The notes under the pieces were generated by a model. The model saw only the letters and a program-made list of their open reading frames with translations. It did no database searches and was not told the DNA's origin. Shown piece by piece: positions 7,584 through 64,000 of a stretch of DNA of 64,000 nucleotides (within the stretch, counting starts at the first letter, position 1; every line of letters begins with the position of its first letter). The stretch spans positions 1 to 64,000 of the forward strand of contig CAJTEY010000002.1 in the NCBI GenBank assembly GCA_910575775.1. Reading direction: 5' to 3'. This stretch comes from Lachnospiraceae bacterium. Its GTDB lineage: Bacteria; Bacillota; Clostridia; Lachnospirales; Lachnospiraceae. The translations under genes and the position numbers were made by a program.

Positions 7584-8666
7584 CTAATCCTCCTTTGTCA
7601 TTCTCTCCATTTCCAATTTCTCCGCCATTTCCGTCTGCACCGTGGGGAACAGGTGGGCATAACGGTAAGTGATTTTCTCCGCTTCATGCCCCATGCGCTC
7701 CCCAATCGCCAGTACCGAAAATCCCATATTGATTAAGAGTGAAACCGCACTATGGCGAATATCGTGGACACGGATTTTCTTAACGCCCGCCTGCTTCGCC
7801 CCTCTCTCCATTTCGTGATTGAGGTAGGATTTTGTGACCGTAAATAAACGCTCGTCCGGCTTAATGTCATAAAGCATTTTGATGTACTCCTGCATTTCCT
7901 CACAGAGAAAAGGCGGCATTTTGATTGTGCGGTTACTTTTCTTCGTTTTTGGGCTTGTAATAATGTCCCGCCCTTTGGAACGGTGGAAAGTCTTGCTGAT
8001 TGTGACCGTCTGTTTCTCAAAATCAATATCAGCAGGCGTGAGCGCAAGCAGTTCGCCGGAACGCATACCGCACCAGTAGAGCATTTCAAACGCATAATAG
8101 GAACGGGGCTTATCCATCATGGCTTCGGAGAATTTCAGATATTCCTCTTTCGTCCAAAAGTCCATTTCCTTGACGGCTTCGCTTCCAATCGTCCCCGCCC
8201 GCCTTGCAGGGTTGTAGGAGAGATTATAAAAGTTTACCGCATGGTTGAATATCGCCGTCAGTTGTGCGTGAATTGTCCTCAAATAATCTGCGGAATAGGG
8301 CTTGCCTTTCTCGTCCCGGTATGCCATCAACTCATTCTGCCACGCAATCACGTCCTTTGCTTCAATTTCTGCGATTTTGCGGTTTTCAAAGTACGGTAAA
8401 ATCTTTGTCCGTATCACATGGCTTTTGGACTCCCAAGTGCTTTCCTTGACACGCTGCTTCTTGTCGGCTTCGTACACTTCAAAGAAACTGCCGAAAGTCA
8501 TATCCAGTTTTGCGCCCTGCTTTAACATGGCTTCATGCTCCCACGCCTGCGCTTCCCTTTTGGTTGCAAATCCCCTCTTTTGTGTCTGTTTCCTCTCCCC
8601 TTTCCAGTTGGTAAAGCGGTAGATTACCCGCCACGTCCCCGTAGCGTTGTCCTTGTATACAGCCAT
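7584..8666 (-). CDS. Tyrosine integrase of element B
   Basis: A 360-residue site-specific recombinase. An arm-binding N-terminal domain (about 1-55) precedes a SAM-like core-binding domain (about 60-165) and the catalytic domain. Catalytic residues visible are Arg202 (MRSGELLAL), His301 and Arg304 (HDIRH), His327 (GH) and Tyr336 (YAHL). It would integrate B at the guaA 3' end and, with the excisionase, excise it. It shares the full layout with the 361-residue integrase of element C, but the arm repeats of the two elements differ (GTTGCCA against ATTACCA). Confidence 0.92.
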   Translation of the reverse strand: MAVYKDNATGTWRVIYRFTNWKGERKQTQKRGFATKREAQAWEHEAMLKQGAKLDMTFGSFFEVYEADKKQRVKESTWESKSHVIRTKILPYFENRKIAEIEAKDVIAWQNELMAYRDEKGKPYSADYLRTIHAQLTAIFNHAVNFYNLSYNPARRAGTIGSEAVKEMDFWTKEEYLKFSEAMMDKPRSYYAFEMLYWCGMRSGELLALTPADIDFEKQTVTISKTFHRSKGRDIITSPKTKKSNRTIKMPPFLCEEMQEYIKMLYDIKPDERLFTVTKSYLNHEMERGAKQAGVKKIRVHDIRHSAVSLLINMGFSVLAIGERMGHEAEKITYRYAHLFPTVQTEMAEKLEMERMTKED

Positions 8667-12465: not shown

Positions 12466-13551
12466 TTAATCAGACCCGTCTATAAGATTATCTAGCTGAT
12501 CGGCAAGATCGCGCGCCTGATCCGGGTATAAATGGGAATATGTCGCAAGCGTTGTCTGAATTTTCTCATGCCCAAGCCTGTCCGCCACAAGTTTTGGCTG
12601 TGCTCCCAATTTTGAAATCAGCAGGGAAGCATGGCTATGTCGCAGATCGTGTAATCGTATTTTCTTCACGCCAGATAATTTGACCCCACGAATCATTTCT
12701 TTTTCCAGATACGACTTTGTCACTATAAACAGACGGTCATTTCCCATCATTCCATACAGTTTTCCAACGTATTCCTCTAACTCCGCTACAAGAAACTCCG
12801 GTAGCGTGATCACCCGTTTCCCTTTGGCAGTCTTTGGTTCTGTTATGATATCTTTGCCATTAATCCTCTGATAAGATTTTGTAATGGACAACGTCTTTTT
12901 TTCATCGTCAAAATCCGATAAAGTAAGCGCTAAGAGTTCTCCAACCCGAACCCCTGTCCAATACATGGTAAGAAAAGCATAATAGGCAATAGGCTTATCT
13001 TTCACACATTCAATAAAAGACTCAAATTCGTCCTGCGTCCAGAACTGCATTTCCTCCGCCTTCCCTTTTCCCATACTCCCCGCCCGTGTACATGGATTTT
13101 TAGGCAGATCATAATATTTCACCGCATAATTAAAAATGGCGCTAAGATGGTTATTAATCGTTTTAAGATAAGTCGGCGCATATCCAGATTTCATAATACT
13201 GTTCTGCCAATGCCTTATATCCGCTGCGGTAATCTCCGCAATTTTCTTTTCTCCAAAATATGGAAGAATCTTTAATTCCACGATATAATCCTTACTCCGC
13301 ATGGTATTTTCCCGAAGCCGTTGTGACATATCATCCCTGTATAGCTCCCAAAATGATTGAAATGTCATATCCAGATTGTGCGATTTTTGAACCATAAATT
13401 GCTCTGCCCATACGACCGCTTCCTTTTTGGTTCTAAACCCACGTTTATGTTTCTGCCGTCTTTTCCCGGTATAATCCTTATAATAGAAAAGGACTTCCCA
13501 ATACCCTCGTTCTTCATTCTTGGTAACAGTCAAATAATCACTTCCTTCCAT
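12466..13551 (-). CDS. Tyrosine integrase of element C
   Basis: A 361-residue tyrosine recombinase with an arm-binding N-terminal domain, a core-binding domain and a catalytic domain. Catalytic residues visible: Arg202 (VRVGELLAL), His301 and Arg304 (HDLRH), His328 (LGH) and Tyr338 (YSHLYP). It presumably uses the ATTACCA arms and the CTCGAACTC core at the guaA 3' end. It is homologous over its whole length to the element B integrase; the N-terminal arm-binding domain is the least similar part, in keeping with the different arm motifs. Confidence 0.92.
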   Translation of the reverse strand: MEGSDYLTVTKNEERGYWEVLFYYKDYTGKRRQKHKRGFRTKKEAVVWAEQFMVQKSHNLDMTFQSFWELYRDDMSQRLRENTMRSKDYIVELKILPYFGEKKIAEITAADIRHWQNSIMKSGYAPTYLKTINNHLSAIFNYAVKYYDLPKNPCTRAGSMGKGKAEEMQFWTQDEFESFIECVKDKPIAYYAFLTMYWTGVRVGELLALTLSDFDDEKKTLSITKSYQRINGKDIITEPKTAKGKRVITLPEFLVAELEEYVGKLYGMMGNDRLFIVTKSYLEKEMIRGVKLSGVKKIRLHDLRHSHASLLISKLGAQPKLVADRLGHEKIQTTLATYSHLYPDQARDLADQLDNLIDGSD

Positions 13552-52878: not shown

Positions 52879-53027
52879 CTAGCACCCGTGCTGGTGCAAA
52901 TATTTCTCTCTTGTAGCCAATCCTCCGCGGATATGTCTCTCCGACTTATTCACATCCAATACCTTTCTTGCCTCTGCCGCCAGGGACGGATTGAGCTGCG
53001 CGAGGCGTTCGGTTACATCTTTATGTA
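52879..53027 (-). CDS. spoIIID: spoIIID 3' segment (split gene)
   Basis: The 48 codons from the shared TACATA read HKDVTERLAQLNPSLAAEAR and continue through KSERHIRGGLATREKY to a TAG at 52879-52881. This is the C-terminal half of SpoIIID, including the KDVTERL end of the helix-turn-helix and the conserved RHIRGG basic region. SpoIIID is the small mother-cell DNA-binding regulator of sporulation. Alone, this segment has no proper start. Its 5' half is at 63767-63898, on the same strand, 10.76 kb away. Confidence 0.9.
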
Positions 53028-53036
53028 TGGTTGTCA
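53012..53036. other. Left attachment site of the spoIIID element
   Basis: The shared core TATGTA is at 53022-53027. Left of it is spoIIID sequence; right of it is element sequence (TGGTTGTCAC). The central dinucleotide TG is at 53024-53025. Confidence 0.8.
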
Positions 53037-54634
53037 CAAATACGAACGGTATTTTCATCCATAGAATTGCCGTTTGATTTGGCGTCTTCTTCACACACGT
53101 CATCCATACCGCTGTCAATCAATACGGTTTCATCCAGCCCCAGTTCTCCAAACAAACGCAGATAGATTTCCACATTTCCTTCCTTATCCACTTCTATTTT
53201 TTGTATGATCTTTTTCAACTGCGCATTAGTCATCTGCCGCACATCGGCGATATCCTCAATCTGCTTAAAGGTATTATTTAACACGCCTTCCAACTGCTCG
53301 CCCTTGGTCAGATGATAGGATACCATTTTCAACTCGTTTTCCAGACGCTCAATCTCTTTTCTCGAACCACCGATCTTCTCATTCAATTCCTCTCTGGAAA
53401 TCAAATCGTCCTCATACATATTCATGTATTTCTCTCTGGCTCTTGTCAGCCTGTTTAACTGGCTCTTTAATTCTTTTTCATATTCAATGTTTTCGTCCTT
53501 CGCCTTATATACCCGCTGAAATTCGCCGACCACATGACGGATTACTTTTTTCTTCTGGCTGAGCATCTGGTTAAAATACTCCTGCAAAACATTGATCAGC
53601 TCGTCCTCGTCAACGGAAACTGCGTTCGGACAGCTATCCGCACCTTTTCCGTTATGCCCGGAACATACCCAGCGGATGTACGTGTTCTTATAGGTGCGTA
53701 CCGTTCTGCGGAACGACCAACCACATTCCTTACAGCGGATTAAGGTCGAAAAAAGGTGCTTATTACTCTGCCGTTCTTTCTTCATATTAAAAGCCGCGTG
53801 TCGTCCATGAAGAATCTCCTGTGCCTTCTCATAATCTTCCTGCTCGATAATCTTTAACTCAGGACGATCCACGACCATCCATTCCGTCTCGTCCTTTTCT
53901 TTTCTCTGTCCGGTCAGGAAATCCGCCACTTCTTCTTTTCCATTTATAATCTTGCCTGTATACAGTTCATTGGTCAGAATCCGACAGACCGCATTCTGGC
54001 TCCAACTGCAGCCTCGCTTCGTTCTAATACCGCGCTCATTCAGCATATTGGCTATCTTGGCGGCGCCGCAGTTCTCCTGCAGATACCACCGATAAATCTG
54101 TTTTACGATATCCGCTTCCTGACGGTTGATTTCCAGATTGAAATAATCACCGATCGTCTTATCATATCCATACACAATATTGGGCACACGACCTTTTTCG
54201 GCGTTCATTTTCTTGCCAAATTTCACACGCTTGGAAGTATTCGCACTTTCCTCCTGCGCCAAAGCACCAAATATGGTCAACACAAATTCACTGTTTCCCA
54301 TGCTGGTCATATTAGCGGTAAGAAACTGTGTTTCGATTCCCAATGCTTTCAGCTTGCGGACATTTTGGAGCAAGTCCACCGTATTTCTGGCAAAACGGGA
54401 GATATCCTTAACCACCACCATATCGAACAGCCCATGTTCGGCATCGGACATCATTTTCAAGAACTCCTTGCGATTCTTAATCTTTGTGCCGGAAATGCCT
54501 TCATCCGCATATAATTTGACCAAAGTATCCCCTGTTTTCTTTGTATATTCCGCGAAAAATTGTTTTTGCGCTTCCAAGCTGTTAAGCTGATCTTCTTTTT
54601 CTGTAGATACGCGGCAGTATGCGGCTATGTTCAT
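53021..54634 (-). CDS. Large serine recombinase of the spoIIID element
   Basis: A 537-residue large serine recombinase. The resolvase domain begins AAYCRVSTEKEDQ with catalytic Ser10 and continues through DEGISGT and DISRFARNTVD. A recombinase domain (NIVYGYDKTIGDYFNL), a zinc-ribbon domain (CKECGWSFRR ... CSGHNGKGADSCPN) and a coiled coil (about 390-455) follow. It cuts both strands with a 2-bp stagger and would integrate and, with a directionality factor, excise the element. Its stop codon TAA spans the attachment core, so it is created by the junction; in the circle the frame would gain 14 residues. Confidence 0.93.
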   Translation of the reverse strand: MNIAAYCRVSTEKEDQLNSLEAQKQFFAEYTKKTGDTLVKLYADEGISGTKIKNRKEFLKMMSDAEHGLFDMVVVKDISRFARNTVDLLQNVRKLKALGIETQFLTANMTSMGNSEFVLTIFGALAQEESANTSKRVKFGKKMNAEKGRVPNIVYGYDKTIGDYFNLEINRQEADIVKQIYRWYLQENCGAAKIANMLNERGIRTKRGCSWSQNAVCRILTNELYTGKIINGKEEVADFLTGQRKEKDETEWMVVDRPELKIIEQEDYEKAQEILHGRHAAFNMKKERQSNKHLFSTLIRCKECGWSFRRTVRTYKNTYIRWVCSGHNGKGADSCPNAVSVDEDELINVLQEYFNQMLSQKKKVIRHVVGEFQRVYKAKDENIEYEKELKSQLNRLTRAREKYMNMYEDDLISREELNEKIGGSRKEIERLENELKMVSYHLTKGEQLEGVLNNTFKQIEDIADVRQMTNAQLKKIIQKIEVDKEGNVEIYLRLFGELGLDETVLIDSGMDDVCEEDAKSNGNSMDENTVRICDNHT

Positions 54635-54774
54635 GCAATTGCTCCCCTGTCCTTTCTATGGTTTCTGTTACATCTATCTTATTACATGGGATGCCAAAAG
54701 ACAAGCCTTTTCATGCATCCTTCCTGTGATGCTATACATCTTGTCCCTGCCATCTTCTAACTCTGCCTATTCGC

Positions 54775-54808
54775 GCAAAAAAGAATGCCCGCGTTATGCG
54801 AGGCACTC
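54775..54808 (-). terminator. Terminator between small gene and recombinase
   Basis: GAATGCC (54783-54789) pairs with GGCACTC (54802-54808); on the minus strand a run of six T follows. It overlaps the stop region of the 56-residue gene, so the recombinase probably has its own promoter in 54635-54775. Confidence 0.6.
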
Positions 54809-54964
54809 TTCCCTTTCTCCATTATTCTGCTGATCTGCAACCATTTTGATAGCCTGCTCAACTTTTTTCTCATTCACTTCCATAAATACTTTTAATATGT
54901 AGTCGGCGGTCACGTCCGCCGGATTGGGGTTGTGAAACCGATAGTTCAATTTCTGCTTTCTCAC
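54794..54964 (-). CDS. Small conserved-type protein upstream of recombinase
   Basis: A 56-residue protein starting (V)RKQKLNYRFHNPNPADVTAD and ending in a helical, acidic tail. GTG at 54964 follows GAGGAGG at 11 bp. I recognise the NYRFHNPNPADVTADYILKVF pattern as that of small proteins that often accompany serine recombinases in Lachnospiraceae, but not its function. It could be a directionality or accessory factor; this is speculation from position. Confidence 0.6.
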   Translation of the reverse strand: MRKQKLNYRFHNPNPADVTADYILKVFMEVNEKKVEQAIKMVADQQNNGEREECLA

Positions 54965-55092
54965 AGCGGTGTGCTACCTCCTCTCTGACACCCTTTGTCA
55001 ATCTTATGTGGGATGACTATAAAATAGACGTATATGGGATGTCTGTTTATCGTTTGCCATGTTACATTGTAATAATATATTATTAAGAACGC
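54965..55092. other. Short promoter region
   Basis: AT-rich stretch upstream of the 56-residue gene. I looked for a sigma-E pattern and found none convincing. A stretch with ATTACAAT near 55066 is only a weak -10 match. Confidence 0.4.
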
Positions 55093-55230
55093 TCAAAATA
55101 CGAAATACTGGATATTCCCCAATCTCCGATTCATTGCCTCAGGCGTCCCGATATAAGCCAATAATTCATTCCAGAATCTTACAGCCACAGGATGCCCAAG
55201 GCGGCAGGGAATCTCCAAATAATGCCACAT
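55093..55230 (-). CDS. Short protein or gene remnant
   Basis: A 45-residue frame from ATG at 55230 reads MWHYLEIPCRLGHPVAVRFW and ends IQYFVF. The frame is open upstream to 55263 (NDEISELPTK), but a good ribosome-binding site (GAGGAGTAGGAGAG) sits before an ATG in a different frame. This suggests a frameshift near the start, that is, a small gene broken at its 5' end. The family is not recognised. Confidence 0.4.
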   Translation of the reverse strand: MWHYLEIPCRLGHPVAVRFWNELLAYIGTPEAMNRRLGNIQYFVF

Positions 55231-55456
55231 CTTAGTAGGCAATTCCGAGATTTCGTCATTTCTCTCCTACTCCTCTATAAAATGATAAAAATTTATGGCA
55301 GCCCTTATTTATAATAAAGACTGCCCCTTTGATAACACGGTCTACCGCTCTTACATATTTGCAAAACACTTCCCTAAACTATGCATTATTTCATAATCTT
55401 AACTTCCCAAATAAATTACCAAACTCCATCTTTCCATACAATTCATAATAATTGCC
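55231..55456. other. Gene-poor stretch
   Basis: AT-rich sequence with no supported gene between the 45-residue frame and the antitoxin remnant. Confidence 0.5.
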
Positions 55457-55660
55457 TTATGCTCCATACTTTCCTCTCAAATCAGAAACCACCTTATCCG
55501 CTTCACGATATTTTCCTTCTTCACAATGTTCTCTGGAACGCTTTAGCTTTGCCAACAGATTCTCTACTGTTAATGCCTCATACGGGTTATATTCTGCTCT
55601 GCTATTATTCTTGATTTCAGAAGGGAAACCACCATTTGCGACTGTCTGTGTCAAAAACAT
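55457..55660 (-). pseudogene. C-terminal remnant of RelB/DinJ-type antitoxin
   Basis: A 67-residue frame reading MFLTQTVANGGFPSEIKN, then AEYNPYEALTVENLLAKLKRSREH. The first part matches the centre of DinJ antitoxins (after the RHH dimerization helix); the remainder looks like the toxin-wrapping C-terminus. The DNA-binding half is missing. It lies just after the ParE-type toxin gene, so it may be the tail of a second, decayed module. Confidence 0.5.
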
Positions 55661-55715
55661 AGTAGACTCCTTATATTCTCCACATAACAAATATGGCAGG
55701 AACAAAAGATACGTG

Positions 55716-56054
55716 TTATTCCATATCCATCTTTGATAAATGGTATAACTGCTCTCGTTTATCATAAATTACAGCAATCACTTGAACCTTCAAACCCTCT
55801 TCATCTATCCAGAAATATACAAGAAAATTTTTTACTGGCAGACGGTGTATCCCCTTGTGCCGCCATGGTTCTTCATCAACCAACGCTACACGCTGCGGAA
55901 AATGGGTAAGTGATACAAAAGAGTCTTCCAGTGCATCCAGCAGATGAAGTGCCGCATCAGGAGCTTTGAGTTCATACGCAATATAATGTATGATCTCCTG
56001 CATCTGTTCTTCTGCCTGAGAAGTCGTCTTGACTGTATATATTTTTTCCATCAT
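55716..56054 (-). CDS. RelE/ParE-family toxin
   Basis: A 112-residue toxin of the RelE/ParE superfamily. The N-terminal helices (SQAEEQMQEIIHYIAYEL) and the C-terminal strands with RLPVKNFLVYFWIDEE and VQVIAVIYDKRE are typical. ParE members poison gyrase and RelE members cut mRNA; sequence alone does not settle which. The start overlaps the antitoxin stop (ATGA), so the pair is translationally coupled. It would favour retention of the element. Confidence 0.85.
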   Translation of the reverse strand: MMEKIYTVKTTSQAEEQMQEIIHYIAYELKAPDAALHLLDALEDSFVSLTHFPQRVALVDEEPWRHKGIHRLPVKNFLVYFWIDEEGLKVQVIAVIYDKREQLYHLSKMDME

Positions 56055-56353
56055 TGCAGCTCCCGTCTTAAATCTGCAATCACATCAACAGCAGGGCGTG
56101 ACTGATCCGCTTTCGCCTGCGACAGTCCTTTCTCCATAACCTCATTAAATTCTTTTCTCGTCATAGAATCAAGTGAAGCTGGCTCCTTAGGCAATGCAAC
56201 GGAAAAGGGAATACTCTTTGTCATGATGATCTGTTTATAAAGCATATTGATGACAACCGATGCCGGAATACCAAGTTTCGACAATATTTCCTCCGCCTGT
56301 TCCTTCACTTCCGGCTCAACGCGCGCGAGTATATTTGCACTCTTTGTAGCCAT
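56051..56353 (-). CDS. RelB/DinJ-family antitoxin
   Basis: A 100-residue antitoxin. The N-terminal RHH domain (SANILARVEPEVKEQAEEILSKLGIPASVVINMLYKQI) is followed by the toxin-binding tail (PFSVALPKEP and RKEFNEVMEKGLSQAK). It binds the toxin encoded next and autoregulates the operon. A good ribosome-binding site (GGGAGG) precedes ATG at 56353. A partly dyad-symmetric ATTGTATAACTATTAGCAAT lies in the promoter region near 56383-56402. Confidence 0.88.
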   Translation of the reverse strand: MATKSANILARVEPEVKEQAEEILSKLGIPASVVINMLYKQIIMTKSIPFSVALPKEPASLDSMTRKEFNEVMEKGLSQAKADQSRPAVDVIADLRRELQ

Positions 56354-56463
56354 AATGGCACCTCCCTTTTTCTATTATTATATTCTATTGTATAACTATT
56401 AGCAATACACAAACAAAAACAACTACTTCAGTGCAAGTATCGGGGAATGTACCATTCTATGAT

Positions 56464-57048
56464 TCAATTTACATATTCTGCTATTCCGCTCAGTCTTTCT
56501 ATATCATCATTACCCCAATATTGGTTATTCCAGTGATAATACTTGTCTTTTCGCTTCTTGAATATCCGAAAGGGTTCTTTCGTATTATCATATATATGCA
56601 GGACATCACAAACCTCAACTAATCTTGGTATCAAAGCGAGCGCCTTATCATATCTTGATCTGATTTTTTCTTCCGGGACACCATGCCCTCCCAACGCTTC
56701 CCTTGCCTGTACTCTTGCAACGTTTATATCTACATTGGCAGTCAAAACATAGATTCCCCTGACAAAATATCCCTGTTTTTTCGCTCTTTGCAATAGAATC
56801 AGATTCCTTTCGGTAGACAGCACTGTTTCAAAAGTAAAATCCTTTTTACTCTGTATCATGTATTCCCGCAATTCTTCCGCCTTCACTGCCGCTTCCAGCT
56901 CCGTACACAAGGTAGTTCTTTTTATATCGTCTGCGTTGATATACTCGCCTCTGACCTTTGCCATCTGCGTGATCGTTGATTTGCCGCTTCCGTTTGGCCC
57001 GGCGAATACAATGACTTCCGAAAGTCTTACCGCATTATTCTCCGACAT
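56464..57048 (-). CDS. Zeta-toxin-like P-loop kinase
   Basis: A 194-residue protein. Walker A is VFAGPNGSGKSTITQ near residues 14-28; the zeta-family INADDI, FTFETVLST and a late arginine-rich segment follow. Zeta toxins phosphorylate UDP-GlcNAc and block wall synthesis. The ATG at 57048 lies inside the end of the antitoxin gene (14-bp overlap) with GGGAGG directly upstream. The pair is a second addiction module of the spoIIID element. Confidence 0.85.
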   Translation of the reverse strand: MSENNAVRLSEVIVFAGPNGSGKSTITQMAKVRGEYINADDIKRTTLCTELEAAVKAEELREYMIQSKKDFTFETVLSTERNLILLQRAKKQGYFVRGIYVLTANVDINVARVQAREALGGHGVPEEKIRSRYDKALALIPRLVEVCDVLHIYDNTKEPFRIFKKRKDKYYHWNNQYWGNDDIERLSGIAEYVN

Positions 57049-57229
57049 ACTCGCGCCTCCCGTCCGGATATTCAAGATATGCTCTTTTTGTCTCATCATC
57101 ATATCCAGCAATGGGCAGTCCTTTTATCTTTCTCACTTCATTATCTATTCTGATTGACTCTTTGAATCTTATTGTCAATTCTTCATCAGAGATTCCACAA
57201 GTGGAATCCAACTCGTTTATGATCGTCAT
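57035..57229 (-). CDS. Zeta-associated antitoxin-like protein
   Basis: A 64-residue protein starting MTIINELDSTCGISDEEL and ending EYPDGRREYVGE. Size, acidity and overlap with the zeta-like gene make it the likely antitoxin. Similar small partners are common before zeta-like kinases in Clostridia. Its fold is not recognised beyond a helical N-terminal half. Confidence 0.65.
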   Translation of the reverse strand: MTIINELDSTCGISDEELTIRFKESIRIDNEVRKIKGLPIAGYDDETKRAYLEYPDGRREYVGE

Positions 57230-57523
57230 TAGCCTTCTCCTCTCCAATTTTATATAAATCAGTACATTAAACAATTGCCTTGCTTATGACATCCACAGTC
57301 AAACTTCTTACTTTTTTATATTGTACCCTATCTCAGATTTTTCTTCAATCATTCCTATTTTATAATATATGCTGTGTTTTAAATTTGTACTATATCTATA
57401 TATTTAGCCATGGTATGGGGTGGTATTGGCGGTATCCTCACTGCGCATACCACCCCTTGCCATTGTCCGCGCCAATATCCTGCGCCGCAGATAATGAATC
57501 AACAATAGCGGCGCAACACATCA
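57230..57523. other. Intergenic region with a strong hairpin
   Basis: No gene is seen. ATGGTATGGGGTGGTAT (57410-57426) pairs with 57447-57463 with only two mismatches. There is no T run, so it is not a simple terminator. It may be a small structured RNA or recombination site. Confidence 0.55.
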
Positions 57524-57817
57524 TTACTGCGGAAGGCGCATAATCTCTTCCATCTCCATCCGCACCCTGATCCCGTCCCCCATTCCAAAGCGGTATGCTA
57601 CTGCGCCATATACTGCGCCGAAATGGTTGTTTGCCGTTATTGCCTGATTGATTGTGCTCCTCTGCTCCTTTGTAAGTTCCAATTCATCCAGCCTGTCAAA
57701 CGCAACCTGTTGTCGCGCCAGCGCCTCTTGGTAGTCTTTATCTTGCGCCATAATCTCATCCAGCGCATCCCCGGTTCTATGCGCCGCGATTATCTCCAAC
57801 AATCCGTTTTTCTCCAT
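57524..57817 (-). CDS. Hypothetical protein (DUF6809-like)
   Basis: A 97-residue helical protein, MEKNGLLEII to MEMEEIMRLPQ. The pattern QQVAFDRLDELELTKEQR followed by YGAVAYRFGMGDGIRVRMEM resembles DUF6809-type proteins of clostridial mobile elements. ATG at 57817 follows AGGAAAGGCGG at a long spacing; an earlier start at 57853 is possible. Function unknown. Confidence 0.6.
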   Translation of the reverse strand: MEKNGLLEIIAAHRTGDALDEIMAQDKDYQEALARQQVAFDRLDELELTKEQRSTINQAITANNHFGAVYGAVAYRFGMGDGIRVRMEMEEIMRLPQ

Positions 57818-58021
57818 ATCTATAATCCGCCTTTCCTCTGTATGTTTCGCCATGTGTACTCCATCTGCCGCCCAGATTATGTACATTCTCTTACTTTGAT
57901 TAAAAATCGGCACAAAAAGAGCAGATTATCCTATTATCGACAGGACTTCCTGCTCTTCATGCCCCGTTTATATTACTTACCTCAAAACCACCATTCCTAC
58001 AATCAGATTCCCCTGCACTAA

Positions 58022-58939
58022 TCATGCAACGATCTGCAGCGTCTCCTCATCCCTGTTGTACATATATACATGATAGGACAGCCGCTCTTCGACATCTACC
58101 TGTGTATCATTTACTTCCCGCACCATTTTAGCCAGCCATTCATACTCTGTTTCATCTTTTGGCGGCAGTACGATAGTCTCATGCAGAGAACTGGGCAGTA
58201 CAATAAATCTATCCCCCACCTTATCCGCAATCATCCTCAGTGTCCTCTTATCAAGGATTTCCGCTGCCCCGAAACGTTTACTGCGGTTTGTCAGTATATA
58301 CATACTTGTATTCCCCGGAACATTATCGGATGCCGCCGGAAATATGAAATCCGGCACGATACGCTTTACGATGGTTTCAATAATAGCAAGGTCAGCTTCC
58401 CCATCAGCGCCCATAATCATCATAGCCGTCTGGTAAAGGTTTTCTTCTTCCTGCCCCCACATTTCCATATGCCCATTATAGATAAGAATCGTCCCAATGT
58501 CCTCCCGCGCACTATCCCTGGCAACGGCATAATATACCACCGCCAGATCCATAAAAGCCCTGTGCGGTATCTCTTCAAGCAGTTCCTTATTCTGTTCCGC
58601 ATTAATGAGTTTCGGATAAACATTTTCCCGGACGGTTTCCCATCTTTTAAATTCAGATATGTCAAAATCCAGCGCATCATCATCCGCATGTTTCAGGATC
58701 AGCCTGCAGACCTCATCCACGATCTCGCCAAACCTCATCCCATCGGATTCATATTCCCGGTAAAACTCATCCAGATACACGCACGGTCCGATATCTTCTT
58801 CATTTTTCATAACGGCGATCCCGGCACGCTTCACACTATTATTTTTAATCACCTTATGCTCTTTGATCTGAAATGCGCCGCCCACCTTCACGCGGATCTC
58901 TTTTACTACATTTTCTGCAAATTCCTCAAAACTCATCAT
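58022..58939 (-). CDS. DUF5688 family protein
   Basis: A 305-residue DUF5688 protein very similar to the one at 18947-19858, especially in the C-terminal 90 residues (ILDKRTLRMIADKVGDRF and FIVLPSSLHETIVLPP). GGAGG precedes ATG at 58939. Its presence in a second, unrelated element suggests a transferable function that benefits mobile elements. It is divergent from the TetR gene. Confidence 0.82.
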   Translation of the reverse strand: MMSFEEFAENVVKEIRVKVGGAFQIKEHKVIKNNSVKRAGIAVMKNEEDIGPCVYLDEFYREYESDGMRFGEIVDEVCRLILKHADDDALDFDISEFKRWETVRENVYPKLINAEQNKELLEEIPHRAFMDLAVVYYAVARDSAREDIGTILIYNGHMEMWGQEEENLYQTAMMIMGADGEADLAIIETIVKRIVPDFIFPAASDNVPGNTSMYILTNRSKRFGAAEILDKRTLRMIADKVGDRFIVLPSSLHETIVLPPKDETEYEWLAKMVREVNDTQVDVEERLSYHVYMYNRDEETLQIVA

Positions 58940-59018
58940 TTATCATCCATCCTCCGTTCTGTCCATTCTTTCGACCAATCCTACCGGGTTATATTCCATT
59001 TTTCCTACATTCTTAAAT

Positions 59019-59072
59019 ATGAATACATTTTTATATTCATGTATTGTACTTTCATGATTTTTCTGTTATACT
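59019..59072 (+). promoter_or_regulatory. TetR operator and promoter
   Basis: The palindrome ATGAATA/TATTCAT (59019-59025 and 59034-59040) lies just upstream of a promoter TTGTAC (59044-59049), 17 bases, TATACT (59067-59072). It fits autoregulation by the TetR protein. Confidence 0.6.
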
Positions 59073-59091
59073 ATTTTCGAGGTGAGATTAT

Positions 59092-59700
59092 ATGAAAACT
59101 ACGAGAACGCCACAACAAAAGCGTTCGATAGAGAAGCGCACAAAAATATTAGAAGCTGCATTTATATTATTTTCCGAGAAAGGTTTTGAAAATACGAATA
59201 CGGCAGAGATATCACAACATGCCGGAGTTGCAACTGGAACTTTATATAGTTATTTTCAAGACAAGGTTGACATTTATAAAACAGTTTTTGAGAGTTATCT
59301 AAAAAAAGAAGTTTCAAAAATACTATCTGAATTGGAATGTGAAATAAATAATCATACGAATATTAGTCAGTTCATTCTTTTGTGGAAAGACTCTTATTTG
59401 TCCCTTTTTGGAAAGCCAAATAGAGCATTAAAAGAAATCAATAGTGTAATGTCGAAAGTTCAAAGCCTTAATATATTTTTTTCGGACTTTGAAACAGAGT
59501 ATGTGGAAAGCATTTATAAGATATTAAAGGAAAAATACAATCCAGAAATAACATTTGAAAAAGTTTGGATTGCATTTTTACTAATTGATGAATTGAGTAA
59601 GGAGTATGTTTCAAGTAGACATAAAAAAATCAATTATAATTTATTAGAGAAACAAGCGATTGTATTCATAGAAACATTATTAACAAATGACGGAGGCTGA
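59092..59700 (+). CDS. TetR/AcrR-family regulator
   Basis: A 202-residue regulator. The N-terminal HTH is clear: KILEAAFILFSEKGFENTNTAEISQHAGVATGTLYSYFQDK (residues 18-58). The C-terminal ligand domain is helical and not assignable. GAGGTGAG precedes the start. No efflux gene is next to it; the downstream genes are a broken DUF2164 gene and GrpB. The AT-rich block 59092-60531 differs from its neighbours and was probably acquired together. Confidence 0.9.
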   Translation: MKTTRTPQQKRSIEKRTKILEAAFILFSEKGFENTNTAEISQHAGVATGTLYSYFQDKVDIYKTVFESYLKKEVSKILSELECEINNHTNISQFILLWKDSYLSLFGKPNRALKEINSVMSKVQSLNIFFSDFETEYVESIYKILKEKYNPEITFEKVWIAFLLIDELSKEYVSSRHKKINYNLLEKQAIVFIETLLTNDGG

Positions 59701-59702
59701 TT

Positions 59703-59959
59703 ATGAAAAGAAATGTTCTTAATGACAAATTCAAATTAAGTAGTAAACAAGAGCAACAAATTAGGATGAAATCAAAGCATTTTATTTTGATGTTCGTGGT
59801 GAGGAAATCGGAATTATAGAAAAACAACAAATTCTTGATTTGTTTTACGAACATATGACTCCTATTATTTATAATAAAGCACCAGATGATGCACACCATT
59901 GGTGTCAACAACAAGCAGAAAATCTTCAATTAGATTATTATTTATTATATTGTGATTAA
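59703..59959 (+). pseudogene. DUF2164 gene with one-base frameshift
   Basis: The reading starts MKRNVLNDKFKLSSKQEQQIR and breaks near 59764-59768. Continuing in the next frame gives KAFYFDVRGEEIGIIEKQQI and ending LDYYLLYCD, the conserved part of DUF2164. One missing G in AGGATGAAATC would restore the frame. It is either a decayed gene or a sequencing error. It overlaps nothing and is 2 bp after the TetR stop. Confidence 0.75.
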
Positions 59960-59994
59960 GATGGGAGGAAATTATTAGTAAAAAACTTTCAGAA

Positions 59995-60531
59995 GTGAGT
60001 TTGGAAGAACTATTGGAATTATTCCCTATCTATTTAACAGAACATCAGAATTGTTGGTCTAAATGGTATGAAGAAGAGCAAAATATTCTAAAAAGAATTC
60101 TTCCTACTACTAAATTGGGTTTGCAAATATATCATATTGGAAGTACAGCCATTCATGGAATATGGGCGAAGCCAATAGTTGATATATTGATTGAAATTCC
60201 TAACGCTGCTACGCTTATACTTGTAAAAGAACTAATGATTAAAAATGGATATATTTGTATGTCTGAGAGCGATAAAAGAATTTCGTTAAATAAGGGATAT
60301 ACAGAGAAAGGATTTGCCGAAAGAGTATTTCACATTCATTTACGTCTTTTGAACGATAAAGACGAAATATATTTTAGAGATTACTTAAATGAACATATGG
60401 AAATTGCGAAAGCGTATGAAAATTTGAAGTTAAATTTATGGAAAGAATATGAACATGATAGGGATAGATACACAGCAGAAAAAACGGAGTTTGTTAATAA
60501 ATACACAAGATTAGCAAAAGAAAGTTTATGA
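59995..60531 (+). CDS. GrpB family protein
   Basis: A 178-residue nucleotidyltransferase-fold protein of the GrpB/UPF0157 family. Visible blocks are YHIGSTAIHGIWAKPIVDILIEI, FHIHLRLLNDKDEIYFRDYLNEH and the helical tail. The nearest canonical start is GTG at 59995. Upstream in frame lie codons for ISKKLSE that match the usual N-terminus, beginning at ATT (59974) right after GGGAGGAAATT. The true start was probably ATG, now ATT, which is a rare initiation codon. Confidence 0.8.
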   Translation: MSLEELLELFPIYLTEHQNCWSKWYEEEQNILKRILPTTKLGLQIYHIGSTAIHGIWAKPIVDILIEIPNAATLILVKELMIKNGYICMSESDKRISLNKGYTEKGFAERVFHIHLRLLNDKDEIYFRDYLNEHMEIAKAYENLKLNLWKEYEHDRDRYTAEKTEFVNKYTRLAKESL

Positions 60532-60581
60532 AGTGAGTAAGCAAAATGCAAAATAAACCAAAACTCAATAGGGAGTGTAAT

Positions 60582-60625
60582 ATAAAGTGTGTAAGTTACC
60601 GATAACAAAAACTTACGCACTTTAT
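60582..60625. repeat. Hairpin at left end of IS256-type fragment
   Basis: ATAAAGTGTGTAAGTT (60582-60597) and its inverted partner AACTTACGCACTTTAT (60610-60625) lie just upstream of the transposase fragment, with one mismatch. It probably contains the terminal inverted repeat and leader hairpin of the IS. Confidence 0.6.
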
Positions 60626-60672
60626 TTTTATGATAAAGTGCGGTACATTAAAAGAAAGGAATCGAAAGGATT

Positions 60673-61068
60673 ATGAGTAACGCACTTATGGCACCACGTA
60701 AAAACAAAAGAAGCGAAGCCAGCAAAGCTATCGCACAGGCAATTATCGACCAGTACCAGCCTGCATCCGCTGAGGATATGCAGGACGCATTAAGGGATAT
60801 CTTCGGCCCCATGTTTGAAGCAATGCTCCAAGGGGAAATGAACAGCCACCTTGGCTATGAGACAAATGATCACGGCTATAAAGAAACCAGTAACCGCAGA
60901 AATGGATATACCCATAAAAGTTTAAAGACCACAATGGGAGAAGTTGAGATCGACACGCCCCGTGACCGGGATGGATCTTTCGCCCCGCAGCTCATACCCA
61001 AACGTTCAAAGGATGTCAGTGGGATTGAAGATAAAGTATTGTCTATGTATGCGAGGGGAATGAGCCAG
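60673..61068 (+). pseudogene. IS256-family transposase, N-terminal fragment
   Basis: About 132 residues of a Mutator-type transposase: DALRDIFGPMFEAMLQGEMN, RRNGYTHKSLKTTMGEVEID and EDKVLSMYARGMSQ are typical. Homology stops after GMSQ at about 61068, where the sequence becomes the complement of an RloB gene. Two thirds of the transposase, including the DDE core, and the right end of the IS are missing. Confidence 0.82.
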
Positions 61069-61410
61069 ATTCAGCTTGTCCACCCGCTCTGCTACGCCAT
61101 TAAAATCTTTTTCCGGGAAACTGTCCTTATCATACACACACCAAATCTGTCCTCTGTTAATCCTATTTTTATGGACATATCGTTCCGCCATACCAATGAC
61201 CCGCATGGTCTCCGCGGCGCAAGGTTCAATTTCAATCAGAACCATATCCTTATAAATTGGATTATCCTCTATCAAACGTTTAAACCCCTCAAAATATAAC
61301 GGCTCCGTTTGTTCACCCTCACAAAAGATATAATAGCGATATTCCTTTTTCTCCAGATATTCTTTGCGCCGTTGTTTCCTCCACTGAGTCGTTCCGACTT
61401 TCTTAGGCAT
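61006..61410 (-). pseudogene. RloB-like gene truncated by IS256 fragment
   Basis: RloB family (Toprim-like) protein. The first 115 residues show YIFCEGEQTEPLYFEGFK with the catalytic Glu region and QIWCVYDKDSFP with the D-x-D motif. At about 61068 the gene runs into the IS256 fragment, and the last residues are out-of-family. Normal RloB proteins are about 200 residues. ATG at 61410 lies 8 bp inside the upstream ATPase gene. Confidence 0.75.
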
Positions 61411-62629
61411 TGACCTCACTCCAATCTATAATCTTTTTCAGATATGGATCTGCGCCATACTTGCCCTCTAAATATTGCTTGTCATATTTAGCATCCATGC
61501 GGACGGATTCCCCTTTTGTATTTTTAAACTCAACCAAAGAATAGAGTTTAGAATTTTGATTCTTTCCCTTTGCCACAAACCAGATCTCATCCCGGCGGAA
61601 TATATCATTATTCATAGTTGACAGATCATGCGAAGTAAAAATTAACTGTGAGCCGTTCTTGTTAATCTCCATATTATTATACAGCATGACTACATATCGT
61701 AACAATACCGGGTGAATTTTTGCATCCAATTCATCAATAACTAATGTTGTTCCTGCGACAAGACTTTTTGCAATAAAAGGCAGTAATCCAAACAATTTTT
61801 GTGTTCCACTGGATTCCTCCGACAAAGTCAATTCCGTACTATATCCATTTACAATATGCCTGGTATAAACTTCTATATGGTTTTCATCTTTTTCCTCAAT
61901 GCGAAAATCCTCAATATCTAAATCCATCTCACGGATCATATCAAGCACAAGTTTTTTTACCTCGTCTGTCTTAGCTATTGCTGTTCGCAGCTCCTGTCTT
62001 GGATTTCCGTAATTTAAAAAATCAATAGAATCCTCAAACCACTGAATCACATCAGAAATAATCTCGTTCTTTTTATAAGTTATCCCAAGATAAGACAGCA
62101 ACGGCAAGTTTTCTGAAATTTCCTCACTGATCTTGATTTTTCCAAAAACCCCTTTTAAATCTACCTCATTATCATTTCTAACAAAAAGCGCTGACCGCCT
62201 CCCGGTGTCTAACTTGATTCGATCCAGACTCTCGTACGCAACAATATCTTGTCTCACATGGAGAATATAACGGTACTCTGCCACATTAGTCCTAAAGAAC
62301 ACTTCAAACTGTGTCGGCTCTTTTCTTGTCTCTTCCGAAAAAGCAAAGGGTTCCACCGGAATTTTTCTAGCCTTAAACTCACACTCCGATTTATCACAAG
62401 TCGCACAAAGAGGTCGTAAAATCTTTGCATCCAGTGTATGCAAAGCCTCCAGCACATTCGATTTACCACCGCCATTCGGTCCATAGATTACGGATACCGG
62501 CAAAAATTTTTCTCCATCTTTTGTTTGAATGATTCTATTCCTATGCTCCATGATTGCCGCAGCCTGCATATCAAAGGTCATTTCTTCACGGATACTTTTA
62601 TAATTTTTTACGGTAAACTGGCATAACAT
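61403..62629 (-). CDS. RloA-like AAA ATPase (AAA15 type)
   Basis: A 408-residue ABC/AAA15-type ATPase. Walker A is VIYGPNGGGKSNVLEAL near residues 46-62; the signature LSEESSGTQKLFGLLPF and Walker B TTLVIDELDAKIHP with the H-loop LIFTSHD are present. RloA and RloB form a two-gene anti-phage system in which the ATPase controls a Toprim effector. RloB is truncated, so the ATPase may be orphaned. The pair lies within the spoIIID element. Confidence 0.85.
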   Translation of the reverse strand: MLCQFTVKNYKSIREEMTFDMQAAAIMEHRNRIIQTKDGEKFLPVSVIYGPNGGGKSNVLEALHTLDAKILRPLCATCDKSECEFKARKIPVEPFAFSEETRKEPTQFEVFFRTNVAEYRYILHVRQDIVAYESLDRIKLDTGRRSALFVRNDNEVDLKGVFGKIKISEEISENLPLLSYLGITYKKNEIISDVIQWFEDSIDFLNYGNPRQELRTAIAKTDEVKKLVLDMIREMDLDIEDFRIEEKDENHIEVYTRHIVNGYSTELTLSEESSGTQKLFGLLPFIAKSLVAGTTLVIDELDAKIHPVLLRYVVMLYNNMEINKNGSQLIFTSHDLSTMNNDIFRRDEIWFVAKGKNQNSKLYSLVEFKNTKGESVRMDAKYDKQYLEGKYGADPYLKKIIDWSEVNA

Positions 62630-62817
62630 AGTCTTTTACCTCCATCTTATTTTATATTATACGCGCTTATCGCAATTTGTAAACAATATTTGAGATTTTT
62701 TCTCACATTTTTACTTAAAATAATTATATTGAATTGTCTAAGTTTGTCGATAAGTTGGCGTTTTTATTTTCCAATAATAAGTTATAATGATAGCATAAAC
62801 AGAAAAGGAGAATTCAC

Positions 62818-63180
62818 ATGACGACATCAGATTACAAGCAACTACAAGAAAACTTCACCCCTGCAAAATTAGTTAATGAAGTTCTAAAGATACATAAAGA
62901 CATTTCGGAAATCACTTGGATATTATCTTCGATTCCGTTTAATACGGAAACTGCCCGCCAAAAAATAACAGCTATTAACGAAGCACACCCGGAAAATCAT
63001 TTATTTTTCTTTTTGATAAATCCTCCTAGTGGTAATTCTACTCCTATTTACAACGCTTCTTCAGAAAGTTTACGGCAAGATTTAGTTTGGAAAAAGGACT
63101 ATCTGGAAATTAAAACCAAAGCAAAGACTTTGCATGAAGTAATTCACCAATTAGAAACCCGATACAATCGCAATCTGTAA
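62818..63180 (+). CDS. Hypothetical protein
   Basis: A 120-residue soluble helical protein starting MTTSDYKQLQENFTPAKLVN. AAAGGAGAA precedes ATG at 62818. No family is recognised. It is on the opposite strand from the RloAB and MNT genes and is ended by the bidirectional hairpin at 63187-63219. Confidence 0.6.
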   Translation: MTTSDYKQLQENFTPAKLVNEVLKIHKDISEITWILSSIPFNTETARQKITAINEAHPENHLFFFLINPPSGNSTPIYNASSESLRQDLVWKKDYLEIKTKAKTLHEVIHQLETRYNRNL

Positions 63181-63186
63181 AAATAC

Positions 63187-63219
63187 GAGGTCGCTGAAAT
63201 CCTATGATCTCAACGACCT
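63187..63219. terminator. Bidirectional terminator-like hairpin
   Basis: GAGGTCG pairs with CGACCTC around an internal loop; the T-rich context suits termination of the plus-strand gene ending at 63180. Confidence 0.55.
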
Positions 63220-63291
63220 CTATCTATATTTTATATTCCTCAAAATTAGTTTAACCGCCATATCGTGCCATTCTTTAGTTTCCGGCGTCAT
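63220..63291 (-). pseudogene. N-terminal remnant of HEPN protein
   Basis: A 23-codon frame reads MTPETKEWHDMAVKLI and then stops. Position right after, and overlapping, the MNT gene, plus the MTPETKEW start, fit the HEPN partner of an MNT/HEPN toxin-antitoxin pair. The catalytic Rx4-6H part is absent. Confidence 0.45.
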
Positions 63292-63589
63292 ATAAAAGCA
63301 CCCCCTTTCGATATACTTCATTCTCTACAGAAGGAATATCTTTTCTTGCTTCAAATCGGCTTCTTGTTCCTAGTACAATATCTACAGGGCGCTGCTTTAC
63401 TCTCCGAACTGCTTTATAGGCTTTCGCCGTCTCTGCCGGAATATCTGCCACATCATCTTTAACAACAATATAAAAATCCAAATCGCTTTCATTTGTAAAC
63501 GTATTATTCGCATAAGAACCAAATAAATATATCTGCACAGGTAAAAGCTGTTCTACAATGCATTCTTTTAACTTCTCAATTTCATTCAT
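63275..63589 (-). CDS. MNT-type nucleotidyltransferase
   Basis: A 104-residue minimal nucleotidyltransferase. The active-site motif is complete: FGSYANNTFTNESDLDFYIV (GS followed by DxD). Such proteins are antitoxins of HEPN RNases, acting by AMPylation. AGGAGG precedes ATG at 63589. Its HEPN partner is only a fragment, so the module is probably inactive. Confidence 0.85.
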   Translation of the reverse strand: MNEIEKLKECIVEQLLPVQIYLFGSYANNTFTNESDLDFYIVVKDDVADIPAETAKAYKAVRRVKQRPVDIVLGTRSRFEARKDIPSVENEVYRKGVLLYDAGN

Positions 63590-63683
63590 ACGAAACAGCC
63601 TCCTTCTTCTATCTTTATACAAAAGCGCCTTATACACTTTGTGATTTTATTATACCCGCAGTCCCTTCATTTCACAATTAAAT

Positions 63684-63730
63684 ATTTTAAAAAGGCATTC
63701 GGAAGTCCTATAACAGTTCCTCCAAATGCC
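63684..63730 (-). terminator. Terminator after truncated spoIIID
   Basis: GGCATT...GG (63694-) pairs with CC...AATGCC (to 63730); on the minus strand the stem is followed by TTTTT. It ends the transcript from the spoIIID promoter inside the element. Confidence 0.65.
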
Positions 63731-63766
63731 CTATTCTTCACTACTGTACAGCCCAAACAAACCGTT

Positions 63767-63898
63767 CTATTTTGTTACTACCATATGTACCGTACTCTTA
63801 CTAATCCCAAACTCCTTCGCCGTCTGCCTCACCGTAGCATTGTTCTCAATAATATAGTTGGCAATGTTCATTGCACGCTCTTCAATATAATCCTTCAA
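63767..63898 (-). CDS. spoIIID: spoIIID 5' segment (split gene)
   Basis: TTG at 63898 opens a 43-codon frame: (M)KDYIEERAMNIANYIIENN, then ATVRQTAKEFGISKSTVH, followed by five residues from the element and TAG at 63767-63769. This is the N-terminal half of SpoIIID, up to the recognition helix (KSTVH). GAGGGG lies 7 bases upstream of the TTG. As it stands the product is a 43-residue truncated SpoIIID. Joined at TACATA with 52879-53027 it gives a complete SpoIIID. Confidence 0.9.
   Translation of the reverse strand: MKDYIEERAMNIANYIIENNATVRQTAKEFGISKSTVHMVVTK
63774..63798. other. Right attachment site of the spoIIID element
   Basis: The core TATGTA is at 63784-63789 with central TG at 63786-63787. 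Left of it (GTTACTACCA) is element; right of it (CCGTACTC) is spoIIID. Confidence 0.8.
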
Positions 63899-63926: not shown

Positions 63927-63955
63927 ATTGTATGAGGGGTTGTGAGGGGTTATGA
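63927..63955 (-). promoter_or_regulatory. spoIIID: Sigma-E-type promoter of spoIIID
   Basis: On the minus strand TCATAAC (63949-63955), 14 bases, CATACAAT (63927-63934). The -10 matches the sigma-E consensus exactly and the -35 in five of seven positions; the spacing is the standard 14. Sigma-E drives spoIIID in the mother cell. Confidence 0.75.
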
Positions 63956-64000
63956 CGATTTAAACGGCAAAGTCTTTATTTCCTTCAATAGGCATAAGTC

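Follow-up and report, generated by a model that had tools for sequence, protein, structure and literature searches.

Can a sporulation gene that has been cut in two by inserted DNA still be put to use, or is it the relic of a lost function? The question is raised by spoIIID, the gene for a mother-cell regulator, in the 64,000-nucleotide stretch of Lachnospiraceae bacterium DNA analysed here (the window; positions 1 to 64,000 of contig CAJTEY010000002.1, or C2, of genome G000). We consider its interruption best read as a widespread developmental DNA switch, and it is quite probable that the inserted element, which brings its own recombinase, is excised in the sporulating mother cell with the help of a small partner protein, thereby rejoining spoIIID.

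Both halves of the gene lie on the minus strand. The 5' half (63785..63898) comprises codons 1-38, from a TTG start at 63898 to the His codon CAT, and the 3' half (52879..53022) continues with codon 39 (Lys) to codon 85 and the stop at 52879. The break between codons 38 and 39 is marked by a TACATA core shared by both junctions, at 63784..63789 (left) and 53022..53027 (right) on the minus strand; the two cores are 10,762 bp apart and fit the attachment-site junctions attL and attR of an integrated element. As it stands, the 5' half runs on in frame into the left arm of the element to a stop at 63767, yielding a 43-residue product. This product and the 3' open reading frame (ORF) score only 63 and 73.2 bits, respectively, against the hidden Markov model (HMM) TIGR02844, both below its cut-off of 111.5, while the joined 85-residue product reaches 136.2 bits. 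The original prediction of a spoIIID split over 10.76 kb by an element with its own serine recombinase, and of a full SpoIIID upon joining, is thus borne out. An intact second spoIIID, which would have spoken against it, is missing from the genome: a whole-genome search with PF12116 gave four matches above the cut-off of 27 bits, all of them spoIIID pieces on contig C2, the next best match reaching 20.1 bits.

The innermost unit of the element (window 53027-63789) carries a large serine recombinase of 537 residues with Resolvase, Recombinase and Zn_ribbon_recom domains (53021..54634, minus strand), located at the 3' side of spoIIID in the same orientation as the gene. As anticipated, its reading frame ends at the 3' junction, where the TAA stop is completed by the base following the core, that is by host DNA; judging from the sequence, a circle released in G000 would therefore encode a C-terminus 14 residues longer. 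The arms next to the cores are TACATATGGTAGTAACAAAATAG on the left (63767..63789, minus), which is conserved in other left junctions of the genus, and TTTGTGACAACCATACATA on the right (53022..53040, minus). Across loci, right arms end in ...ACAACCATACATA or ...ACGACGAAACATA and left arms start near ACATAYGGWNGTRAYAAAATAGAACGG, with some variants. The arms that would form attP, the circle junction, in G000, GTGACAACCATA and TATGGTAGTAAC, are mirrored at 10 of 12 bases around the CA of the core, a pattern known for large serine integrases.

That the split might be a unique event in one strain is ruled out by its recurrence in two bacterial families. We scanned genome contigs with four recombinase queries and two recombinase peptides, none of which makes reference to spoIIID, found 108 relatives and kept 80 loci; spoIIID 3' halves were then located with an HMM built from 33 intact SpoIIID proteins of the genus. 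A 3' half adjoins the recombinase on the same strand in 76 of the 80 loci, and in 77 if L103, at a contig end, is included; the recombinase stop lies at an identical offset from the 3' half in 53 of the 76. At locus L158 (9980-11718), recombinase and 3' half form one open frame, the latter making up residues 512-579. The hosts belong to the Lachnospiraceae (for example Extibacter) and Oscillospiraceae (for example Pseudoflavonifractor), and their records include Blautia, Schaedlerella, Extibacter, Sporofaciens, [Ruminococcus] torques, Pseudoflavonifractor, Flavonifractor, Angelakisella and Anaerotignum. The element is thus a family, present in at least two bacterial families and at the same site in dozens of other gut bacteria. 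Recombinase identity of 75-99% across these hosts suggests that it spread by transfer between them.

When 30 of the 80 genomes were searched for spoIIID, 29 gave matches, all with a 3' half and 28 with a 5' half; none of the 29 has a complete gene. Twenty-six of the 28 half pairs lie on one contig and strand, roughly 5 to 64 kb apart, and one genome (G102) has two 5' halves. In a sample of 298 genomes of the window's family, spoIIID was found in 194, 23 of them with half-length best matches only, and of the 22 such genomes besides G000, 14 carry the recombinase, in every case adjoining the 3' half; a 5' half is present in all 14 and on the same contig in 11. Together with G000, the recombinase therefore sits at a split spoIIID in 15 of 194 spoIIID-bearing Lachnospiraceae genomes. 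Two genomes in our data, G325 and G080, have identical coordinates and may be one.

How might excision be tied to spore formation? Upstream of the recombinase lies a small ORF of 56 residues (54794..54964, minus), which we call HNPN after its sequence pattern (RKLNY..HNPN..TA.Y.LKV..EAN..KVE.AI) and regard, from its sequence context, as a candidate recombination directionality factor. It is found in 72 of the 80 recombinase loci, and several of the eight without it extend only a short way upstream of the recombinase; in a pattern scan of 44 loci of the window's genus it occurs only in those of the four recombinase-bearing genomes. The protein has no Pfam or NCBIfam match, and a search with it returned 303 relatives, most of the 120 listed ones being without a name. 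Its leader in the window carries a sigma-E-like promoter (GTCTATT-14-CATAAGAT; 55001..55029, minus), as does spoIIID itself (GTCATAAC to CATACAAT; 63927..63956, minus), both judged by the sigma-E consensus. Of the small-ORF leaders, 68 were of sufficient length for scoring; in 64 of these, the elements of the top-scoring sigma-E-like pair ([GT]ACTATT, GGATATT and similar, followed by CATA) are spaced 14 bp apart. The mean score is 11.3, compared to -1.3 for mononucleotide shuffles, in which a missing CATA counts -9, and -6.3 for the shorter recombinase leaders. The recombinase leader in the window (54663..54704, minus) shows a sigma-A-like promoter, TTGTCT-17-TAAGAT; sigma-A scores are 9.2 for recombinase leaders, 8.1 for their shuffles and 8.2 for small-ORF leaders. 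Control of the recombinase by sigma-E, which we also considered, is unsupported by these scores. Behind the -10 element lies an GATGTAACAGAA box resembling the right half of attB (spoIIID codons AAAGATGTAACAGAACG in several species), and in 55 of 77 recombinase leaders a GTAAC.GA-type box is present, similar in sequence to the spoIIID codons that directly follow the break. The recombinase may thus bind its own leader.

An equivalent division of promoters has been described for the skin element in sigK of Clostridioides difficile, where, according to the accessible text of PMC5025042, the recombinase CD1231 is driven by sigma-A, the 72-residue CD1234 requires sigma-E and SpoIIID, and excision needs both proteins. 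By analogy, this suggests that a small protein fired by sigma-E switches the recombinase to excision. The recombinase would be made from its sigma-A-type promoter and, on its own, keep the element in place; the HNPN protein, as directionality factor, would be made from its sigma-E-type promoter once the mother cell exists and turn the resident recombinase towards excision. The 5' half, driven by sigma-E, would thereby be fused in frame to the 3' half, and the joined gene would be read from its own sigma-E promoter. SpoIIID would then be confined to a cell without progeny, and the element would be preserved in the germ line. Since SpoIIID could exist only after excision, it cannot help to trigger the event as it does for CD1234 in C. 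difficile, and the trigger would be sigma-E alone. Excision by the element's own enzyme is likely confined to spore formation; both excision and its timing are what we infer from the arrangement of genes and promoters.

Several observations weigh against this reading. Excised forms did not appear in the assemblies: the joined spoIIID was not seen in that of the window's strain, and searches with a single attP consensus pattern, which misses some arm variants, gave no match in viral contigs and no circle junction in 46 genomes, the four pattern matches there being left junctions. Three of the 80 recombinases (L119, L138, L141) lie away from spoIIID, their right arm being followed by other DNA; one of the three is in G098, the sole genome of the 30 without a spoIIID match. 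In G086, no 5' half is visible. Three of the 14 family-sample elements look damaged, with stops in the recombinases of G150 and G331 and a C-terminal piece only in G211; the 5'-half matches of G150 and G331 also hold a stop, possibly beyond the break. Finally, the ratio of nonsynonymous to synonymous differences (pN/pS, as ratios of means) is 0.26 for the 5' and 0.39 for the 3' halves of the split set, compared to 0.092 and 0.082 in intact genes of the genus, with pS saturated in the split set.

The lack of excised forms, the damaged recombinases and the degenerate outer 5' halves found in the genus are what one would expect if a selfish element had simply broken spoIIID, leaving strains that no longer complete sporulation and gene halves that are mere relics. 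We regard this as unlikely: all 28 translated pairs are open, with median pN values of 0.205 (5') and 0.27 (3') far below pS (0.78 and 0.79, saturated), and each of the 28 5' halves in split genomes has retained a sigma-E-like promoter (the script's best score), with the 14-bp spacing in 25. Recombinase and small ORF have, moreover, stayed together in the 72 loci mentioned above, and none of the four split genomes of the genus has lost spoIVA. Quite unlikely, too, is that the element leaves at random during growth, free of mother-cell control, such that a culture would be a mixture of split and joined genes. Both states do occur in one culture for the yin element in yabG, as the accessible text of PMC10747680 reports, and a sigma-A-like recombinase leader would suit such a regime; the sigma-E-like leaders of the small ORFs would not, and the 46 genomes searched showed only the integrated junction. 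A misassembly around repeats, conceivable for a draft of 176 contigs with a repeated 5' half, is barely credible, as the layout recurs in the one-contig genome G299 and, on contigs of megabase size, in Blautia massiliensis, Schaedlerella arabinosiphila and Sporofaciens musculi; every one of these assemblies would have to contain an identical error.

In the window's genus, the site takes the form of an array. The original prediction had proposed a search for uninterrupted spoIIID in related genomes, and such genes exist: spoIIID is matched in 48 of the genus's 77 genomes and complete in 40, the remaining eight being without a complete copy, one of them (G008) because of a contig end. Thirteen of the 40 additionally carry extra 5' halves, a fourteenth (G066) being doubtful. 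A recombinase of at least 86% identity is present in four of the 77 (G000, G009, G026 and G058), where its end meets the spoIIID 3' half; three more genomes have only relatives of 32-33% identity. A match to spoIVA was found in 71 of the 77, including all four split genomes. Twenty-nine of the 77 lack a spoIIID match at 1e-5, for which loss, assembly breaks at repeats or divergence are possible reasons.

The window's strain has three left junctions and one right junction, as two further copies of sigma-E-like promoter, 5' half and left arm follow beyond the window, one at C2:68850-69072 with 73% identity and damage adjoining the core, the other at C2:71400-71622 with 92% identity. Sorting by a script pattern gave 28 left-junction copies in 18 genomes of the genus. 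Their 5' halves are under weaker constraint, as judged from a pN/pS of 0.221 for 22 of them against 0.092 in intact genes. In G021 and G022, 5 bp separate the spoIIID promoter from an M23 peptidase gene upstream of it (identified by eye), probably the old gene order; most other loci of the genus that we drew have variable DNA in this place, partly consisting of defence and toxin-antitoxin genes. Array units (G000:C2:63737-71622, L041, L042, L049 and other loci of the genus) each open with promoter, 5' half and left arm, and their cargo includes AbiL-like, methyl-directed restriction, primase (TOTE-like by eye) and nucleotidyltransferase/HEPN-like genes.

Plain tandem integration is an unlikely origin of such arrays, as it would leave attP junctions inside them, and in all 23 left-arm rows (21 distinct places) the arm comes after a spoIIID 5' half. 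The idea of a second recombination site, placed exactly at the GTCATAA -35 element of spoIIID, is weakened by the upstream stretch that the copies share, which varies by lineage: there is none between the G000 copies, some tens of nucleotides in ...AAGAATAATCTTTGA... lineages and an 814-bp repeat in G072. This variation agrees with a complete promoter and 5' half having been regained repeatedly, for which homologous recombination, transfer and sister-chromosome exchange are candidate routes. Outer left junctions with their cargo would be left behind whenever such a unit lands next to the 3' half, and by this putative route leftovers would build up defence arrays in front of spoIIID. The G072 repeat (L045, 2378-3191 and 17683-18496) is direct and 98.5% identical, holds a helix-turn-helix gene, the spoIIID promoter and the 5' half, and its two copies enclose some 14.5 kb of cargo ahead of an intact spoIIID. 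Cargo evidently moves between species, since one block shares 99.2% identity with G009 (2326 bp) and 97.8% with G043 (2255 bp), compared to 73-74% between G000 and G009 for guaA and the MATE gene. Inspection by eye shows a 5' half of a different type in G043 as far as the core, with the cargo match starting beyond it, which is what integration at the core should produce.

A second recombinase system uses almost the same spoIIID codons. Its 3' half begins about two codons further on (STVHKD|), and the loci are L207 (G166), L208 and L213 (G217), L210 (G248) and L209 and L214 (G395). Three consecutive recombinase-like ORFs lie upstream of the 3' half in G166 and G248, and two in the G217 stretch; Resolvase and Recombinase domains are present in the five ORFs from G217 and G248 that were checked, and no recombinase was found in the stretch examined in G395. 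G166, G217 and G395 share a left arm unlike that of the first class. The G217 contig with the 5' half also has ParA-like and replication-like ORFs (by eye). The full picture, with spoIIID as a main DNA-level switch of sporulation in gut Lachnospiraceae and Oscillospiraceae, a one-way latch formed by its specific recombinase and a sigma-E-fired directionality factor that restricts SpoIIID to doomed mother cells, a second system that reached the same few codons independently, and a spore-linked defence island accumulated by accretion through repeated use of the site, is in our estimate evenly poised between right and wrong.

The gene for sigK is likely intact in these genomes, as suggested by its profile, which matched in all 34 genomes searched, in 33 with a best match of at least 195 positions and no stops; only six pass the sigK cut-off, and the profile also catches relatives such as sigma-E. 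In G095, a sigK-like gene is apparently split, with pieces at C23:4354-4713 and C23:11492-11758 (about 6.8 kb apart), and a split spoIIID is on the same contig.

The original prediction had likened the element to skin. This holds for the split gene and for the element's own recombinase, as it does for skin in sigK of Bacillus subtilis (recombinase spoIVCA) and yin in yabG of C. botulinum, both excisable elements with a large serine recombinase in a sporulation gene. It does not hold for the position of the recombinase, which here adjoins the 3' part of the gene and in B. subtilis skin and yin, according to the accessible text of PMC10747680, the 5' part; the target genes differ as well, and the present family spans at least two bacterial families. 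Closest is the C. difficile skin element, in which a serine recombinase likewise splits the gene of a mother-cell regulator; the promoters of recombinase and small ORF here look like the sigma-A-driven and sigma-E-dependent ones reported there (PMC5025042). There too, the recombinase position differs, SpoIIID is a co-trigger, and the target is sigK instead of spoIIID, which acts one step earlier. The HNPN ORF, which has no Pfam or NCBIfam match, is likened to CD1234 by its promoter type. The accessible text of PMC5595907 describes gin of B. cereus as another element that is not phage-like and splits a small mother-cell regulator gene, in that case gerE; its discussion sets the regulation of the gin recombinase apart from that of the constitutive ones. 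Split sigK, spsM, spoVFB and gerE are named besides yabG in the accessible part of PMC10747680. The original prediction named no earlier element in spoIIID, and a literature search without most subscription papers and bioRxiv preprints found no paper on one.

If our reading is correct, programmed gene rearrangement acts one step earlier in the mother-cell cascade and is widespread among gut bacteria instead of limited to a few bacilli and clostridia. Spore formation by these commensals is relevant to their transmission and to spore-based therapeutics, and predictors that rely on gene presence could count a split spoIIID as missing. One predictor called 24 of 24 Lachnospirales metagenome-assembled genomes non-sporulating (PMC12536801, the accessible text of which does not mention spoIIID). 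The element also supplies a recombinase with a readable attachment site, together with a candidate directionality factor, and named isolates carry the split gene: Blautia massiliensis GD8, Extibacter muris DSM 28560, Schaedlerella arabinosiphila DSM 106076, Sporofaciens musculi WCA-9-b2 and Bacterium 1xD42-87.

Some likeness exists to the staphylococcal cassette chromosome (SCC), elements of which form composite arrays at one gene. The recombinase gives weak matches to the corresponding profiles, far below their cut-offs (CcrB 155 bits against 900, CcrC 128.3 against 900, CcrA 60.8 against 700); unlike in SCC, the target gene is split in its middle. A phage origin is disfavoured: matches to the recombinase in phage records are all below 60% identity, and profile searches turned up no phage structural genes among the cargo ORFs, a PHROGs search not having been made. 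The cargo of the window's element comprises, on the minus strand, a nucleotidyltransferase (NTP_transf_2; 63275..63637), an AbiLi-like AAA ATPase (276.8 bits; 61403..62629), a short RloB/AbiLii-like gene (61006..61419), a zeta-toxin-like kinase (56464..57111), a RelB-like antitoxin (56051..56353) and a ParE-like toxin (55716..56054), and on the plus strand a fragment of an IS256-type transposase (60673..61299). Elsewhere in the window, tyrosine-integrase-like ORFs (by eye) at 7584-8666 and 12466-13551, near relaxase-like and primase-like ORFs, belong to separate mobile DNA.

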